Below, piece after piece: positions 798-64,000 of a DNA stretch of 64,000 nucleotides (position 1 is the stretch's first letter; each line of letters opens with the position of its first letter). The stretch spans positions 456,195 to 520,194 of the forward strand of contig JAMYWO010000001.1 in NCBI GenBank assembly GCA_024220525.1, written 5' to 3'. This stretch comes from Cochliopodium minus (taxonomy: Eukaryota > Discosea > Himatismenida > Cochliopodiidae). The notes under the pieces were generated by a model. That model made no database searches and was not told the DNA's origin. It saw only the letters and a program-made list of their open reading frames with translations. The translations under genes were made by a program, and so were the position numbers.

Positions 798-3700
798 ATG
801 AATGAAATCAATTATATATTTTTGATAGAGGATGATGTAGCAAAAAATTTGAATATTTTCTATAATTATTTGGCTCTTGGAGAATTCGAATTAGCAAAAG
901 CTATATTATTAACATCATTTGATAGAAAAAAGCAATTGCAGATATTACATCAAATTATTACTGGTGGAATACCAAATGAATGGTATTTAAAATTACAAAA
1001 AAATAATAAAATTTTATAATAGACTTAAACAGGATGATATCAAAATCTGTTCCTTCACATGCACATTTGTTGTGGCTTTGTATGTCATTATATTTGGAAT
1101 TAATTGATTTTGAACTGAGCACGGTGGAGGATATGGAGAATTTGATAAATCAGGTTTCATATGAAGTATTGTTGCACAGTGCCTTTGAATTTTCAAATGT
1201 AAGATAGAATATTCCAAAGAAAAAAATAAATTTTTATAAAACAAAGATAAATCACAATATATTTGCTATAACAAACTATATTTTCAATAATCCTATCATA
1301 TTTTAGCCAAAAGCGAATTTATTCAATGAAATAAGAGAATATGGATTAACTGTCATTAAAGAATCAAATAATAATGTCAATTTTACTTTATCATCATCGG
1401 CAATCAATGAGTTAAAACAAATCTTTGCTCTTTTTCCAATTTTAGGAAGCACAATTTGCCATTACTTAAAGCCAAGCAGAGAATTGTTGACAAAACTGTT
1501 TATAGATTTAACGATAAATCTTCTCGGAGACAGTCAGTTCGAAGAAGCATGCTATTTCCTTCAATTTCTCAACGTGAGAGAGTCAGACAATCTTAATCTT
1601 GATGTTCTATTCTCCAAATTTAAAATAGGATTGGAAAACGGACAAGAAAAAAAGTGGAAAATAATAGAATCTCTTGTCAGCTTGACCGAACCCTTTGCAC
1701 TCAGAAAGTTTTGTTCAATGGAAGAAAAAAGTTTAGAAGAAGAATCTAAAGTTCCCTTGCCAAAAATCTTTACAGAGTACCACCAAAACCATTTCAGTTT
1801 TGAAAAGAGAGAAATAACTGAAAAAAAATTCTTCAGCGAATTTTTCCATCTAGTCAGAGTAACAGGAAAGCACTTTTTTGAATATTTGATGGAAAAATCT
1901 ATCGATTTTATATCTTCCAAACAGTTTGAAAATGCGAAAATTTTGCTATGTGCTTTTCCCAAATTGAAACCTCTGTTGATATTGATGATGGATACAAAGT
2001 TTGAGAGCGACATTAGTTCTAAAAAATTATTATTCGAGCATCTGTGGGATGAAACAACAAAGTCTATGACAGATCCTTTGCTGGTTTCGGGGTGCTTAAA
2101 TCTTGAATACGAAATAAAACTCTCAGGTATTCTTTTATTTCAGTGTTTTTTTTTTCATTTTTACGAAATTTAAATTTTCTAGAATGGTGTGCACAAGAAA
2201 TTTCCGATAAGTGTAATAACAGCAAGTCTGTTTCTGTTGGGGATAATTCTTTATCATGGTCAACCCTCACTGATATCTCCAATGCTGTTTCTAAAGTACT
2301 GAAAAAGAACTCTGTACCATATTGTTTGCAACATTGGATTTCTAGGATTGATATTTCTAAATTTGAGGAAATCTTTTTTTCTAATCCAGGCCTTACTAAC
2401 GAGATCTCCAAAAAGTTCGTTGAGGAGTCCAATTTTATAGAACTGCAGTTGATCTACTCTTTCAAATTTATTTCCCAAATTCTTCAAAAAATTGAAAAAA
2501 ATGACTTCAAAGATTTTGGGGATGTCGAAACTTTGTTTGACAAAGTAGTTTCTACAGAGAAAAAACTCATGCTTTTGGAGATTGTCTTTTCCTTTATTTT
2601 TTTGACCACTGATCAGCTAAGATTTAAAAAAGAGGTGAAAGAAAACTCCTTTATCATCAATGATATCTCGTTCGTCATTTGGTTGGTTAATTTCATCCAA
2701 AAGCTATTTTCCAAACACTTAATAGAAAACGATGAAGAGGGAGAACAAAGCACAGAAGTTAATTGGGAAACCTACTTACAATCTATTGATCAAAATCAAG
2801 AAATTTTCGAAAGAGCACAGACTCTGTTCCGTAATTCCCAAGACATGAAGATAAGATACACCTTGGTTTCTTCTATGATGGAAAACAGATTTAAATACTA
2901 TTTCGATGAGGTATTTTTTTTTTTGGTTTTTTATTATTTTTCACAAAAAAATTTTCTAAAACAGAATTTTTCAATGAAACATCCCATTGTAAATATGCTC
3001 GCACAACCTAAATCTTTGCTTTCGATGGCATTGAGATCCCAAAATTTTGGGATAGTCACCAAGATTATCACTTTTTATGATTTAGAAGAAAGTGATCCCA
3101 AAATTGTTGAAATATCAAGCTTTGCTCAATATCTTTACAACATAAAGGAGCAATTAAACTCTGACACTCCAATCGAGATATCAGAATTTTTGAACGAATG
3201 CAACAGTGAGTATGAAGCTTATTCAATTCTATTGGAACTTGCCCTTATGTCAGATAATACCACGCAAATTAATGAAATATTAGATCTGGCATCCCACCAA
3301 AAAGAAAAGTTCCCACAAGGATTTCCTCTTTTTGAATCTTTGTTGCAAGTGTTCAGAGTCTTGATAGAAAAAGGAAAATTTTTGCAGTTTTTTGGTGAAG
3401 AAATTAACAACTCTCCTATTGATCCAAGTCAATTAAGCGAGATGATCTCTAAATCTTCTGTTCTCAACGAGAAAATAGAAGCACTAAAAAATGAACAAAA
3501 AAGCGAGAATAAGAACAATGAGAGCATTTTTCAGGGAATTTCAGAGATATTTCTAGATCAGAACCAACCTTGGACTCCTGGTCAAGAGCTAGAGAAGGGA
3601 AGATCTGATTACTTTGGAATTTTTCTTAAATACATTTGTTCTCTTGCCAATTTGTTAAAAGGAACGAAATTAGAGTAAGTTTACTTTAGAAAAAATTTAT

Positions 3701-6700
3701 TTTTAAACTTATTTACTGTTTACAAGGAATCAAAACTATTTTGATCATCTCAAAAAGGGAATAACTGGAATTATTTCTGATCTTGTTTTCCAACAAAAAG
3801 AATGTAAGAAAACTCTTTTCTAATTCGAATCATAATTTTTATGATCTCTTTTTATAGTCAAAAAAGCAGAGGAAATATCTTCTATGCTTAGATCAAGTCT
3901 CATATCTAGAATAATAGATGCACTTTCTGAATCGAAAAATCAGAATTATAATTCAATTGCTTACGAAATCAACAAAAAATATACAAAGGATTTCATAACT
4001 GATGATGTAAATGATATGCCAAATCAAATTGGGAGTTTGTTGAAAGCGAATATAGGCAAAATCATTACACAAAATATCGAAAAGAATACAAAAAAATCCC
4101 CAGAGATTTCCCAGAAAGAAAATCACTTTGATATCATCTCAAGTGAGAAGATCCAAAAGGAGATATCCATAGAAATAATTGATTATGTATCGAACACATC
4201 TGAAATATTGTCATCTACCATGTGTCTTCTAACCTCTCCCAAAAGCTTAAAGGATGATAAATATTTAGATTATGCTCACAAGAACACACAAAAAGGAACT
4301 GCTTTAAACAAGCTTTCTGAGGGGAAGATCCAAATGAAAAAGATGATCGATGAGAACTTTTCCAAAGTCAAAAACGAAAAAGAACAGCTCGAGATTTTTT
4401 CTTCCTTGTTTTCTGAAGAAATGGACAAAGAAACATCTGTCTTTAGAGAATTAGTCAAAAAGTATGTAGAAGAAGGGGAACTAAAGAAAGCACTAAAAAT
4501 ATCGGATGAAAATCTTTCAGAGGGAACATCTGATCACATCCTCAAGTTATTGATCCATAAAACAGAAAAGTCAAAAGTACACAAGTATCTCTTAAGATTG
4601 TCCGATAAAAAAGAAGCTATAAAATTAGCTTTGAATTATTATACAAACTGGTCTTTGGATGTTTGCAAAGAAGTATTTTACATGTGTGAATGTTATGCTA
4701 CAATGTTCACTGATACCAACCAACAAGCTTTTCGTGATAAGTACTTGCTTATGAACACCTATTCTTCTATCTTGGAAATAAACAATTGTCCTTGGAAACA
4801 ATGGCAACAACTTGACGAAGAATGTAAAACAGATGCTCCAGAGGTGATCTCTAAGCTTTTGGATATTAGGCAATATAAATACGCAAAAGACATTGCGGTA
4901 ATCTATTCAAAGGGAGATCTCATGGAGATAGAAGAGAAATCAATCTTAAACATTTTGTCTGATAACAACATAACAACCGAGGGTATCTTAAATGCTCTTG
5001 AAGAGCTCAAAGATAGTGCAATTCCCATTGTAGAGAACGTTATTGGAAAAAACATTAACAACACCACAAAGCTATGTCTCCTACAATATCTCAAGAACCA
5101 TCCACAATATCCCCAAAACAAAAAACTTGTCGTTTTGTCCAAGGAATTGGGAGTCAACATGTTGATTGATATTTCTAACATCATGAAAACAAACGAGGAG
5201 AAAGAAAGTTTTACTGAAGAAGGAGACGAGCAACTTTATTTTGCTTTGCAAGAGATCAACTCTTATCCTGAGCTCATTTTGGAAAGTCTTGTGATGTCGG
5301 AGAGAACAGTAGTTTGCTCAAAGTTGATCAAAAATTATCCTCAACTTTGCAATGACGAACTTTTCATCAGTTACGCCAAAAAAGCCATTACTACTGAAAG
5401 AAGAAACCAAAGAGATCTACAACCACAAAAGTTTTGGATTTTCAGTGGGAAAGAGGTAAAGGATGTTGTTAAATTGATTATTTTTATGTAAAATTATTTT
5501 TTTTTTTAATTAGGAAACCGACAAGATTATAAGAGAGAAACATTACTTTGCCAATGCACCAAGTATAAACTTGGCAACTACTCTTCTGAACATGTGCAGT
5601 TCCCCTATCGTTTCGGGAGAATCGTGTTTCGAAATGGCAAACAACATCTCGAAAAATATTCAACAAAAAGATGATCATCTCTTAATGTTCAACATCATCC
5701 AAAACTTGTTATTTTATGCAAAGTTACAGTTCTCCAAAGATCAAGAAGGAGGTTCTAGTGGCTTCGCACTTTGCCAATCTTTGTTGTCCAACATCGAATT
5801 GCTAAGATCCTTGTACATTTCCAAAACGGGAATACCTGTCTCATTGGTCGATCTTTCTAATCCTCCTAAAGTGAGACAACTCAGAGACAAACTCACCAAT
5901 CTCGATAAAATGAAAATGGCAATAGACGTTGCAACCAAATGTAGAGTTGAAGTTGAACCAGTGTTTGCTGCATGGGGTATTGCTCTTTTAAGATTAGGAA
6001 ATTATGATTTGGCTAAAGAAAAGTTCATGAGATGTTTGACTGCTCCCAACGAAAGAAGAATGGGAGGTGGTTTAGTTCCTCAGTTTGATAACACTGGTGC
6101 TCTTGCAAAAATCATAGATGTGTTGGAGCAGGGACAGACTTTAGATTCTAAAGTTATTCGCCAAAAAGTTCTAGAGTTGGAGCTTTACCTCAAAAATTCA
6201 AAAGATTCAAAGGATTTGCAACTAAAAATCAGCAAAATGGAGTTGGAAGAAAAGCTTCCATCAAGATTGAACTCTGTCCGTTTCATGCAATGTATTTTTT
6301 ATCTCACCAGGTTTGGAACACCCATCATGCTCATCAAATTTTGGATCCACAATCACTTGTTGGAAGATGCCTGCAGATACATTCTCTTGAACAATATTTC
6401 CACAAGCATTTTCATCGAGGAAGTTTTCATCTACTCTTTGAGTCATGGAAAATTGGAAGCTTTGTTTCAATGTCTTTTTGAAAAGATTGATCCAAAAGGT
6501 ACTAAGAGTGAACCTTATCTCATTGAAATTTGCAAGTTTCTTAAATTAAAGAAGGCCTACAGTCTTTTACTCAACGTACAATCATTAATGAAGGACAATG
6601 TGCGTGCTGGGCTCACTTGTATCAAGCTCTTTCATGCAGGAATAGAAATGAATACAAAACTAAATTATTTGGAAAAGGCGGAAGATTTTTTGATTGCGGG

Positions 6701-58775: not shown

Positions 58776-58870
58776 TTATTTATTTATGTTTTTAAAAATA
58801 TTTTTAATTTTAATTTTTAAAATTATATTTCATTATTTATTTATGTTTGCCAAATTTATTAATTTTTCTT

Positions 58871-59149
58871 TAAAGAATTTTCAAAGAAAGATGATTACTC
58901 TAGAAAGGAGAGGGATGGACTCAAGAAGGAGAGGGAAGGATCTTTGAGAGATGAGAGGGATGATCCAAAGAAAGAAAGAGAGGAAAGAAAAGAAAGGGAG
59001 GAGATCAAAAAGAGAAAGGAGTCTTCTTCTAAGAAAGATTCTGAGAGTTCTGCAAACAAAAAATCAAAAACTGAATTTAAAAAACCATCTGATAACAATG
59101 GTGGGGGTGAAAAGAAAATTGAATTGAAGAGGAGAAATGAAAAAAATTA
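58871..59149 (+). CDS. Highly charged C-terminal exon of an unknown protein
   Basis: After an acceptor (CAAAG) an open frame reads KKDDYSRKERDGLKKEREGS and continues in an Arg/Glu/Lys-rich low-complexity region to TAA at 59149. Its first about 100 bases match 60066-60166 closely. It lacks an upstream exon here. It probably is the 3' exon, or an allelic or duplicate version, of the gene starting at 59639. Confidence 0.5.
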
Positions 59150-59638: not shown

Positions 59639-60166
59639 ATGAAGAATGAAAGAAATAAACCTTGGCATTGTAACATTTGTGACATGTACCATCATAAATT
59701 GATCAAATGGAAATGCAATTTTAAAGCAAAATTTGAAAATCTTCCAAAAATATCAAAAAAAGATTTGTGTGTGGATAGAAAAGATAATCTCTATAATTTT
59801 TTGAAAACAGATTGCAATGTTGCTTATCATAGAAGAAATAAAATTAAAGATAATATAAAAGTGAATAAACTGTATATAGGAGGTTTGATGTGTAATGCAG
59901 CAACATCCGCTATCAAGAGATTTAGAGATAATTTAATCAAATCTCAAAAACAAATCGAAGAAATAGAGAGCGATTCCATCCAAGACGAGGATCCCAAAGC
60001 AGTGAATAGTAGTAGGATCAAAAAATTATTTTTTAAATTTATTTTTTTCAATTGAAGAATTAACAAAGAAAGATGATTACTCTGAGAGAGATGGACTCAA
60101 GAAGGAGAGGGAAGGATCTTTGAGAGATGAGAGGGATGATCCAAAGAAAGAAAGAGAGGAAAGAAA
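59639..60166 (+). CDS. Hypothetical protein with Cys/His motif, truncated at a join
   Basis: The first exon starts MKNERNKPWHCNICDMYHHK, with a CxxC-x4-HH pattern and a later Cys (KWKC) that could form a small zinc site. It continues to about 59998-60027. A second exon after AACAAAG (about 60078) reads KDDYSERDGLKKEREGSLRD and is cut by the n at 60167. The second exon duplicates most of 58885-58990. No known family was recognised. The ATG is preceded by a 12-A run. Confidence 0.5.
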
Positions 60167-60167
60167 N

Positions 60168-60318
60168 CTGACATGGATTTTGTGTTGGAAGCAAATCATT
60201 TTAATATTAATTTTGAATAACTCAAATTCAAAACTGCATTTTGGATCTGTGCCTATTGATAGTTTAAGATAAGTGATGTTGTCAACGAAAGGTATCTGTT
60301 CCTTTGGTTCTTGATTCT
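60168..60318 (-). pseudogene. Host exon interrupted by hAT element, downstream piece
   Basis: Fifty codons open on the minus strand from the target-site duplication (NQEPKEQIPFVDN, then LSIGTDPKCSFEFELF) down to the n at 60167. The frame continues that of 63843-64000 if the transposon and one copy of the 8-bp duplication are removed. No domain recognised. Confidence 0.65.
60311..60318. repeat. Target-site duplication, left copy (TTGATTCT)
   Basis: Eight-base direct repeat identical to 63843-63850, the length typical of hAT transposons. Confidence 0.8.
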
Positions 60319-60375
60319 CACGAAAAAATATATTACTACAAAATCTATATAAGTTGTATTATCTCAAAATTTTTT

Positions 60376-60408
60376 CGCCTGCGGCGGGCTTTTTTGGCCT
60401 ATCGGCCG
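60376..60408. other. GC-rich subterminal hairpin of the hAT element
   Basis: Two small inverted repeats in tandem, GCC-TGC-GGC and GGCC-TAT-CGGCC, separated by a T run, in otherwise AT-rich DNA. GCCTGCGGC also occurs in the hairpin at 10860-10900. Confidence 0.6.
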
Positions 60409-60507
60409 TTGTTTGATGCTGTTTATATAATTTATTTGTAATTAATTAAAAACTTTCTAAATCCCTTTTTTTATTAATAAAATAAAAATTTTAAAATCGA
60501 ATACAAT

Positions 60508-63360
60508 TTATTTGAAATAAAAAGATTTGACATCTATGACTGGATCTTTCAAACCAAAATCATTGTCAACTACAAGTTTTCTAAAATTGTATTTGAGATC
60601 AAAGATGTTTTTGACAGTTGAGTCTTTAAGGAGTGGCCTTCCTTCAACTATGGAGTGCTGGCTTTTGAATCCTCTTTCTGATTCTGCACTAGAAGCTGGG
60701 AAGTTCAAATAAACTTTAGCAATAACTTTGAGCAATTGAAATTCTTCGCCATATACATCCCACCAGTCCAAAGGATTTTTGAAAACAATTTTATCATTAG
60801 AAAAGTAAGTAAATCCAAAAACAGGATCTAAGATTTTCTGCCCAGGAAGGAATCTCTTATCACAATTGGAAGGAGTATTTGTGTTTTTGAAGAGATTTTG
60901 AAATTGAAGAATTTCAATGTTATGCTCGATTTTTGTTGAAATTCTTTTCATGATTTCTACATATAATGAAAGTTCCTTTTCAAATTTTTTGGAGTCTGTT
61001 GGTAACAGTGACTTTGGGAGATTCTCATGGAAAAATTTCGATGTTAAATTATCCAGGAGAGATTCATCTTTGTCCATCATGATGCCAGCTGTATTTGGAT
61101 CGAGAAAAGTGGAAATCATATAAGTATTGATGGAGGAGAATACATGAGATGAATAATGTAGTGTAAGTTTGTCGAATGCTTGTTTTTTTGAGAGAGAGAA
61201 ATAAAAGCAAAGTTGTTCAATTATTGGTTTGTTTTTGATGTTCACTTCTAACATCATAAGAGATTTTTTCTTATTTTCTAATTCTTCCTTTACTTTCTCT
61301 TTTTCTTTGTCCTGATTCTTGAGATCTTTTTCAAGCAAATAAATTGATCTAAGCACCGTTGAGTATTCTTTCATGAATTTTTCAATTTCTATCAAATCTT
61401 CTGGATAATAGCTTCGTATCAGTTCAACTTCACTGGGAGAAAGGTCCGTCTTGGAATAGAAATTGATGGAGCTTTTGTAGTACGGGATGACCCATGATAT
61501 AGTTGGGAGATCATTACTTTGGAAAAACTTTGTTGCAAACACCAATCCATCAGTAAGTAACAAGAAATACTCGATTTGGAACAAGTAGGAATGGAGACTG
61601 CGCGTGTTAATCAAGTCGAGAAGCCCATTGTCGTTTATGGGAATCTTTTTTTCTCTACATAAAGAGAGCCATTCGTATAGATGTTGAAGGTGGGACTTTC
61701 TGGAATTTTTTGGAGGATTGAAGAGAATTAAAAGAACTTCATGGGTTCCCATCCATTTTTTCAGTTCCTTAGAAGATGGAAATTTAGAAGGAATAATTCC
61801 CATGTTTTCACAGAAACTACTCCAATCATAATGTTTTTTCGTACTTTGTGAAGTAAAGAGATTCATGCATGAAGAAGCTAACACTTTAAGTGCAGGAGGA
61901 GTCGCAACATTAATAACTTCGGAAGATAAATGAGGAGTGCAAGTAATAACAACAGCATTAGGAGCATATACAAGTAAATTCTTCATTCCCAACTTTTGGT
62001 AAGCAGTACTATCCCCAATAAAAAGATGGATTTTGTCTTTAATATCATTATACAAAGCTGTATTGAACAATTTCTCTTTGAAAGCTTGCAAAACTTTTTC
62101 ACTGTTTCCTGGCCCCTTCATGAAGAAAGTATCAAAATGCAGCCACACTCCATCCACTCTAACCATAATACAATAAGCGTTTGTCTTTCTTTTGTCAATC
62201 GATGCATCGGAAGAAAACACAAGAGACTTTGCATTTTTGAGAACCATCCATAAAATCTGTGTCAACATGAAGCATATCAGAGGAAGAAGATCAGATAGGC
62301 AAGAGGTGTTTTTGCTGAAAGTGAGAGGTGTAAAAACATTTTTTATGGAGAATTCTGAGTTATCATAGGCAATTTGAGTGAACAAATTGAATGGAAGATC
62401 ATTTTCACAGCACAGCAGCAGAAACTTGAATCTTTCTATATCCTTGGTTGCTGAATAAGGATAGTATCTCCACCAAAAGTGACTAATCTTGGCAAGTTCT
62501 TGTAAAACCAGTTTTTTGTGGGTGAGGGTATCAAGATGTTGATCGAGCATTTGGTCTGATTTGCAACAAAAACTTTGTTTACACAATTTACAATGGAGGT
62601 TGTGCTCTTTTATCTTCTTGCCTTTCTTTACTAAAACTATTTCAGGTAGAATCCCTATATGTGGTGTTCCTCCTCTTTCTTCTAGCCAAATTTTAATTCT
62701 TTCTTCACTTGGAAAATTTCTTGGAGTTGTCTTGGTTATCTTTTTAGTTTTGCTTCCAGAGAGAATTTCTTCTTCTTCAGTCTCGACCTCCAATATATTT
62801 CTCTTTCTCTTGCCTTTTGTTTGTGTACCTTTCTTCTCTTTATTCTTTTTCTTTGGAGTTGATTTTCTTCCATTATAAACATTGTTAGTGATCTTATTAT
62901 TTTCTATAACATTCACAACTGAGAAGTCAATCAGTGTTGGTGGAATTGACGGTATAGTTTGCACATCACTTGTCGTATGTGGTGATCCAACAGGTGGTAC
63001 CTCAAGCATACGTGGTCCTCCATTTTGTACATTCAGTGATTCTTTAGGCGGCACGTCTCCCATCGGAAGTGGTACAGCTTGTACTTCAACCAATAGTGGT
63101 GTTATTCCCACAGGCAGCACATCACTCGTCGTCTGTGGTCCTCCATTTTGCGCATCTCCAATTAGGGGAGAAGCTCCATTTTGTACATTCAGTGATTCTT
63201 TAGGCGGCACGTCTCCCATCGGAAGTGGTACAGCTTGTACTTCAACCAACAGTGGTGTTCCTAATGATCTATTACTTTGTGGTGAAGATGTACTTTTTGA
63301 AAATAATTTATTAATTGGAACAAAATCATATGGTATTTTCAATTTTCCTCTTTTTTTCAT
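60508..63360 (-). CDS. hAT transposase, 950 aa, intronless
   Basis: Single open frame. Residues 30-150 contain a tandem repeat in which TPLLVEVQAVPLPMGDVPPK appears twice, then a basic, nuclear-type Lys/Arg region. A BED-like zinc finger follows (CKLCKQSFC, then HLDTLTHKK, about 255-285). The RNase H-like core carries candidate acidic residues in VFSSDASIDK and FIGDSTAYQKLG. The C-terminus is the typical hAT dimerisation block: NPLDWWDVYGEEFQLLKVIA, then LNFPASSAESERGF with the final Glu. hAT transposases cut out and reinsert their element by a hairpin mechanism. No stop or frameshift is present, so the copy may be active or recently inserted. The coding sequence is richer in G and C than neighbouring genes' introns. 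Confidence 0.92.
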   Translation of the reverse strand: MKKRGKLKIPYDFVPINKLFSKSTSSPQSNRSLGTPLLVEVQAVPLPMGDVPPKESLNVQNGASPLIGDAQNGGPQTTSDVLPVGITPLLVEVQAVPLPMGDVPPKESLNVQNGGPRMLEVPPVGSPHTTSDVQTIPSIPPTLIDFSVVNVIENNKITNNVYNGRKSTPKKKNKEKKGTQTKGKRKRNILEVETEEEEILSGSKTKKITKTTPRNFPSEERIKIWLEERGGTPHIGILPEIVLVKKGKKIKEHNLHCKLCKQSFCCKSDQMLDQHLDTLTHKKLVLQELAKISHFWWRYYPYSATKDIERFKFLLLCCENDLPFNLFTQIAYDNSEFSIKNVFTPLTFSKNTSCLSDLLPLICFMLTQILWMVLKNAKSLVFSSDASIDKRKTNAYCIMVRVDGVWLHFDTFFMKGPGNSEKVLQAFKEKLFNTALYNDIKDKIHLFIGDSTAYQKLGMKNLLVYAPNAVVITCTPHLSSEVINVATPPALKVLASSCMNLFTSQSTKKHYDWSSFCENMGIIPSKFPSSKELKKWMGTHEVLLILFNPPKNSRKSHLQHLYEWLSLCREKKIPINDNGLLDLINTRSLHSYLFQIEYFLLLTDGLVFATKFFQSNDLPTISWVIPYYKSSINFYSKTDLSPSEVELIRSYYPEDLIEIEKFMKEYSTVLRSIYLLEKDLKNQDKEKEKVKEELENKKKSLMMLEVNIKNKPIIEQLCFYFSLSKKQAFDKLTLHYSSHVFSSINTYMISTFLDPNTAGIMMDKDESLLDNLTSKFFHENLPKSLLPTDSKKFEKELSLYVEIMKRISTKIEHNIEILQFQNLFKNTNTPSNCDKRFLPGQKILDPVFGFTYFSNDKIVFKNPLDWWDVYGEEFQLLKVIAKVYLNFPASSAESERGFKSQHSIVEGRPLLKDSTVKNIFDLKYNFRKLVVDNDFGLKDPVIDVKSFYFK

Positions 63361-63477
63361 TGGAAAATAATAATCTTTATTTTTATTTATATTTTTTGGG
63401 TTATTTTTATTTTTTAGTTATTTTTTTAGGGTTATTTTTATTTTTTTGAATATTTTTCTTCATTAAATTTTACCTTT

Positions 63478-63800
63478 GACATATATGTCAATTTGTTCCA
63501 TAGGATGTTTATCTTTAGAAAAAAAAAGAATTTATAGTCACAATACAATAGATATACAATATTTTTAAAGAAGGATGAAAAAAATTACCTTTTAATGAAA
63601 TGACATATGTCAGCTTGTTCCATAGGATGTTTATCTTTTAAGAATTTATAGTTCGAAGTATAAAAAGAAAGAAATTTTTTTTATATAATAATTTTCTTTT
63701 TCTATTTCAGATTTTTCTATGAATTACCTTTCAATGAAATTGTATTATTTTTATAACGTGTGTATTATCACTAACAAAATTGTATTATTTTTATAACGAG
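63478..63800. repeat. Subterminal direct repeats at the right end of the hAT element
   Basis: TTGTTCCATAGGATGTTTAT occurs twice (about 63491 and 63616), each preceded by GACATATRTGTC-like sequence. AAATTGTATTATTTTTATAA occurs twice (about 63738 and 63777). Such subterminal repeats commonly bind hAT transposase. Confidence 0.65.
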
Positions 63801-63842
63801 GATATTACAAAATATTACATTGTATTATTTTGTTTTACCCTG

Positions 63843-63850
63843 TTGATTCT
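63843..63850. repeat. Target-site duplication, right copy (TTGATTCT)
   Basis: Matches 60311-60318 exactly and abuts the CCCTG end of the transposon. Confidence 0.8.
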
Positions 63851-64000
63851 TCATAAGATTGGAATAGTTTAAAGGCTTGTTGACGTTATTGACGTTTTCT
63901 TTTGATTTTTGTTTAGATTTCTCCAAATGTGCTTCACTAGGTGTTTTATCTTCCCATGAGGTTGACATTGAAGGATAGTTATACTGAATTTCTCCTTCTT
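63843..64000 (-). pseudogene. Host exon interrupted by hAT element, upstream piece
   Basis: Open minus-strand frame running in from the window edge (GEIQYNYPSMSTSWEDKTPS, then a Lys/Asn-rich stretch, PLNYSNLMKNQ) and ending at the duplicated target site. The element's inverted terminal repeat follows directly. The gene is unrecognised; it is low-complexity and polar here. Confidence 0.65.

Follow-up and report, generated by a model that had tools for sequence, protein, structure and literature searches.

A full-length, potentially autonomous hAT transposon very probably inserted into a protein-coding exon of Cochliopodium minus

hAT elements range from 2.5 to 5 kb in size, according to the available part of PMC8961557. 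Hermes, the element of Musca domestica, has asymmetric ends in which short subterminal repeats, set a constant distance from the tip, are bound by BED zinc fingers; 8-bp duplications, a length of about 3 kb, an N-terminal zinc finger and dissimilar ends are also given for Hermes in the accessible text of the same source (PMC10368747). An amoebal hAT element with an intact transposase and with non-autonomous partners that mainly share its ends has already been published. This is hAT-5 of Acanthamoeba, reported together with the MITEs hAT-NA1 to NA5, which shows 8-bp duplications and the PF05699 domain, and whose transposase of 620 residues was assigned to the Ac family on the basis of a tree (PMC6004678, available portion). 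Among the papers listed for hAT elements in protists and amoebae, none was recognised as an account of the element described here.

The present element was found in a window of 64,000 nucleotides (the whole stretch of DNA that was analysed, C1:456195-520194) from the 44.65-Mb assembly of C. minus, which comprises 598 contigs. The genes of the window are eukaryotic and include those for ZFYVE26-like and RRM proteins. The element extends over 3,524 bp at positions 60319 to 63842, with the transposase encoded on the minus strand. Very likely it is a complete hAT DNA transposon of the cut-and-paste class, potentially autonomous, that has landed in a protein-coding exon. In size it falls within the published hAT range, its transposase carries the hAT C-terminal dimerisation domain, and an 8-bp duplication is present (TTGATTCT here, ACTTAGGG around a second copy on contig C88). 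With Hermes it has in common the 8-bp duplications, a length near 3 kb, an N-terminal zinc finger (putative in this case), dissimilar ends, subterminal repeats whose distance from the tips is constant and the C-terminal sequence PASSA..SER.F. It differs from Hermes in that its transposase has 950 residues instead of 612, its subterminal motif is another one (AAGT/AAGC in the Hermes text available) and its terminal repeats are less alike. Neither TTGATTCT nor ACTTAGGG fits nTnnnnAn, the Ac consensus, which is a further difference from Hermes and, with two sites, a weak test. The target consensus of the Buster family is nnnTAnnn, to which ACTTAGGG conforms and TTGATTCT does not. The likeness to hAT-5 lies in the intact transposase, the 8-bp duplications, PF05699 and the existence of a non-autonomous partner sharing mainly the ends; a difference lies in the length of the transposase, 950 residues as against 620 in hAT-5.

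The initial annotation had described a complete hAT element with imperfect CA...TG ends and exact 8-bp flanking duplications. Both duplications were recovered, as TTGATTCT at positions 60311-60318 on the left and 63843-63850 on the right. In the inward direction the two tips read CACGAAAAAATATATTACTACA and CAGGGTAAAACAAAATAATACA; they give the CA...TG ends and are alike at 10 of the first 16 bases. Such a terminal inverted repeat is poor and counts against the reading as a complete hAT element. The octamer TTGATTCT is common in the window (7 occurrences observed, 11.7 expected). Among 1,000 left and about 630 right starting positions it formed the sole 8-mer pair with CA...TG inside, and when the two end regions were shuffled base by base, 248 of 2,000 shuffles contained at least one pair of this kind. 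The window alone therefore fails to prove where the element ends. The ends were settled by the copy on C88, because it has the same termini and an exact duplication of its own, and the description of a complete element is thereby upheld.

The C88 copy measures 781 bp, runs on the reverse strand of a sequence free of gaps, is devoid of a transposase and is bordered on both sides by ACTTAGGG. Its first 15 bases are identical to those of the window element; its right terminus reads ...TTTCACCTTG, compared to ...TTTTACCCTG in the window. The left ends of the two copies are 95% identical over 109 bp and the right ends 88% identical over about 150 bp. Ungapped differences affect 5 of 108 and 8 of 115 positions, so the two copies do not derive from one very recent burst. 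Since the interior of the C88 copy had no other match in the genome, it is regarded as a non-autonomous relative and not as a simple deletion derivative.

A genome search with the left 192 bp of the element returned these two copies only (C1 and C88), and so did the right-end pattern when up to three mismatches were allowed. Five matches were obtained with the right 283 bp: the two copies, one stretch of the element itself and two partial right-subterminal sequences of 86-88% identity, one of 57 bp on C204 (L058 about 4290-4346) and one of 49 bp on C248 (L059 about 3567-3615). The latter two loci, possible fragments of this family, share roughly 77 bp, each abutting an assembly gap, and then diverge. 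Copies with different ends, which the initial annotation had named as an observation that would speak against it, did not appear, as the only other two-ended copy has the same ends. The DNA search with the whole element, in which 40 of 223 candidates were scored, produced at least 109 matches, namely the element itself, two on C88 and 106 of low complexity. The region concerned, 63294-63494, is A+T-rich and resembles a tandem repeat; it is located at and upstream of the ORF start and has at least 106 matches elsewhere in the genome. These 106 matches were set aside for their low complexity.

The motif TTGTATTAT is repeated close to both tips on the plus strand. One occurrence is found at 60354-60362, 36 bp from the left tip. 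The three others stand near the right tip with a spacing of 40 bp, at 63820-63828 (nearest, starting 23 bp from the tip), 63780-63788 (second, 63 bp) and 63740-63748 (third, 103 bp). All four have the same offsets in the C88 copy. On the plus strand of the 64-kb window the motif occurs four times, exclusively at these subterminal sites; on the minus strand it also occurs four times, once within the element interior. It is probably bound by the transposase, since the BED fingers of Hermes bind spaced subterminal repeats (PMC10368747, available part). A stretch of 32 nucleotides with two short hairpins (60376-60407, plus strand), G+C-rich in an AT-rich genome, is identical in both copies. No further genomic site was found for it within three mismatches, and a 30-nucleotide G+C-rich stretch had no exact match in the genome contigs. 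The predicted fold of the 3' UTR around the G+C-rich stretch was no better than that of shuffled sequences (z -0.83).

The transposase ORF (60508-63360, minus strand) consists of 950 codons without a stop, and the initial annotation of an intact hAT transposase was borne out by a Pfam match to PF05699 (Dimer_Tnp_hAT) with an E-value of 2.6e-7 and 30.8 bits against a curated cut-off of 21.4. The dimerisation region covers residues 860-922 (60595-60783, minus strand). In a PDB search up to E 10, Hermes was the sole match (E 0.0066): PASSAESERGF aligned with PASSAASERTF, pairing E895 with the Glu of the Hermes sequence. A second stretch, in which CTPHL was paired with CSSHL of Hermes, was below noise in that search. 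In Hermes, the catalytic residues include the Glu of SER.F. Candidate active-site residues would be D385 or D389, D450 and E895. For the first Asp, D385 was proposed from the run LVFSSD, while a two-sequence alignment pairs D389 instead. The stretch from D450 to C474xxH477 (61930-62013, minus strand) may contain the second catalytic Asp and a C/H motif. A single-sequence structure model of poor quality (mean pLDDT 38) has no strand near D385 or D389 and shows a predicted strand that ends with D450. Residues 257-281 (62518-62592, minus strand) form a CX2C...HX5H zinc-finger-like stretch that is BED-like by motif only; the Pfam zf-BED family had no match in the transposase. The N-terminal extension contains an 86-nt coding duplication on the minus strand, with copy 1 at 63018-63103 and copy 2, 99% identical to it, at 63174-63259.

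The codon usage of the transposase correlates at 0.88 with that of eight window ORFs taken as host genes, and its GC3 of 0.29 lies within their range of 0.19-0.46. This host-like usage, the intact ORF and an own-genome search that returned only the transposase itself at E 0.001 (one candidate) would also be expected if the transposase were a domesticated host gene with incidental repeats around it. This explanation is considered extremely improbable, as the ends, the subterminal repeats and the 8-bp duplication immediately enclose the gene and are seen again at the independent insertion on C88.

Beyond the genome, a set of 5.8 billion proteins was searched with residues 190-950, giving no match at E 1e-3 among the 7,993 candidates scored, and with residues 770-935, giving none at E 10 among 253 candidates. 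In viral contigs, 81 pattern matches were obtained for the transposase and none was confirmed. That these searches gave no close relative counts against the favoured reading. Distant hATs may escape the protein search because it requires shared exact words. As a control, the neighbouring ZFYVE26-like ORF retrieved two proteins from the same set, one of them (ENA) matching it along the entire length at 75% identity; the set thus includes a relative of the host (longest contig 5.3 kb).

The PF05699 domain was detected at three places in the genome, of which this element and C259 are over the cut-off and C45 is under it (E 0.661). The C259 locus (L060:4350-6584) encodes a second intact hAT transposase of 744 residues (PF05699, E 1.2e-8). 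It is very distant from the 950-residue protein, with 16 of 72 residues identical in BLASTP (E 0.020). In a two-sequence alignment both proteins have C257, C260, H275, H281, D450, C474, H477 and SAESER in common (numbering of the 950-residue protein); the Cys-His spacing at 474-477 is longer in C259 and the alignment is bridged there by a gap. No convincing ends were found for the C259 hAT, and its candidate duplications were only A+T-rich, chance-like pairs.

Insertion into a coding exon is considered quite probable from the features of the flanks. The left flank (60168-60318, minus strand) would be the downstream part of the interrupted exon and the right flank (63851-64000, minus strand) its upstream part, with a frame that is open to the gap. 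The initial annotation had reported open minus-strand frames in the same phase on both sides and an insertion into an exon. Once the element and one duplication are omitted, the joined minus strand is indeed open for 99 codons in one frame, over all 301 bp known. This length was reached in any of the six frames by 13 of 2,000 dinucleotide shuffles. The codon score of the joined frame is 0.17. The five remaining frames contain stops, are penalised for them and score between -0.39 and -1.00; 28 pieces of host training ORFs average 0.29. The 18,000 shuffled frames included 24 fully open ones, none of which scored as high. The open frame and its host-like codons therefore lend support to the exon proposed at the outset.

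The same flanks could accompany a genuine hAT element if their open frame were due to chance, an intron, a UTR or another mobile element. The joined 99 residues have no significant homolog in the genome (best E 0.162, on C125) or in Pfam (best E 0.19). The C125 match was equalled by none of 500 residue shuffles; it was picked as the best of the genome and is not counted as evidence. With about 150 bp known on each side, the left flank is more weakly coding than the right (0.006 vs 0.287). Moreover, since a Polinton-like provirus starts beyond the gap, the interrupted frame might be part of a mobile sequence. Against these points stands the fact that all 301 bp are open in a single frame that keeps its phase from one flank to the other and has host-like codons, and a non-exonic origin of the flanks is rated as decidedly unlikely. 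An empty or second site was searched for in the assembly and none was found. If the exon reading is correct, the interrupted protein would be truncated, because the reading frame of the occupied site runs into a stop after five residues encoded by the element, and the host protein may thereby be lost.

The element is carried by an island of 3,833 bp, bounded on the left by a single N at position 60167 and on the right by 5,647 N directly after position 64000. This agrees with the early remark that it lies beyond a contig join. The insertion may be present on a single allele, as was also suggested there. The join at 60167 is placed at the end of a repeat, given that the adjoining 83 nucleotides (60084-60166) repeat 58908-58990 with 99% identity and that the similarity continues at 90% over a longer stretch. 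With this repeat at the join and gaps on both flanks, the scaffold position of the island depends on the assembler. The island could have been misplaced by scaffolding and belong to another locus, as its two boundaries would allow and as the plus-strand ORFs on the left side of the N, which stop short of it, might indicate. The host-like codon usage and the C88 copy, which shares the ends and lies within 10 kb of gap-free sequence, speak against misplacement, which is judged unlikely; the same two observations make contamination unlikely. The placement of the island leaves the identity of the element unchanged. Left of the join, 58863-58990 and 60045-60166 form a duplicated stretch with a plus-strand frame rich in charged residues, the second copy of which stops at the single-N join. 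Rfam had no match in the island or the window, and ARAGORN predicted no tRNA in the 64 kb.

For the favoured reading of a hAT transposon in an exon, the following sequence of events is proposed. The transposase would bind the repeated TTGTATTAT sites, one on the left and three phased by 40 bp on the right, via its N-terminal zinc finger, and would pair the two CA...TG ends. The element would be excised by a DDE-type RNase H-like active site, and insertion into an 8-bp staggered cut would give rise to the TTGATTCT duplication. The non-autonomous relative on C88 has followed the same rules in moving. The initial description of the element as recent and possibly mobile is plausible. The element could also belong to a deeply separated hAT lineage that is still mobile and lies outside the families described so far. 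Its marks would be the 950-residue transposase and the asymmetric ends (one presumed binding site vs three with 40-bp phasing), and the genome would contain a single autonomous copy along with a single non-autonomous partner; this broader proposal is unlikely. The locus offers an autonomous hAT element that is paired with a non-autonomous one and has clear boundaries, in a eukaryote of AT-rich genome. The phasing of subterminal sites is conserved between the copies, and the age of the gene interruption could be estimated. The pair may aid in understanding how hAT ends are recognised, and leaves existing knowledge of hAT elements unchanged.

Two observations were made outside the element. The Polinton-like provirus beyond the gap occupies C1:526059-549291 (L041:6059-9998, L062, L063) and encodes a Pox_A32-type ATPase (E 4.2e-7), a collagen-repeat protein (E 6.2e-17), an rve integrase (E 1.9e-15) and an ORF of 1,484 residues without a Pfam match above cut-off. 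An additional ORF of 418 residues, without a family match, resembles a capsid protein by eye. In the whole genome, the 10-mer TTGATTCTCA occurs 444 times, compared to 44 occurrences of the same pattern read backwards.
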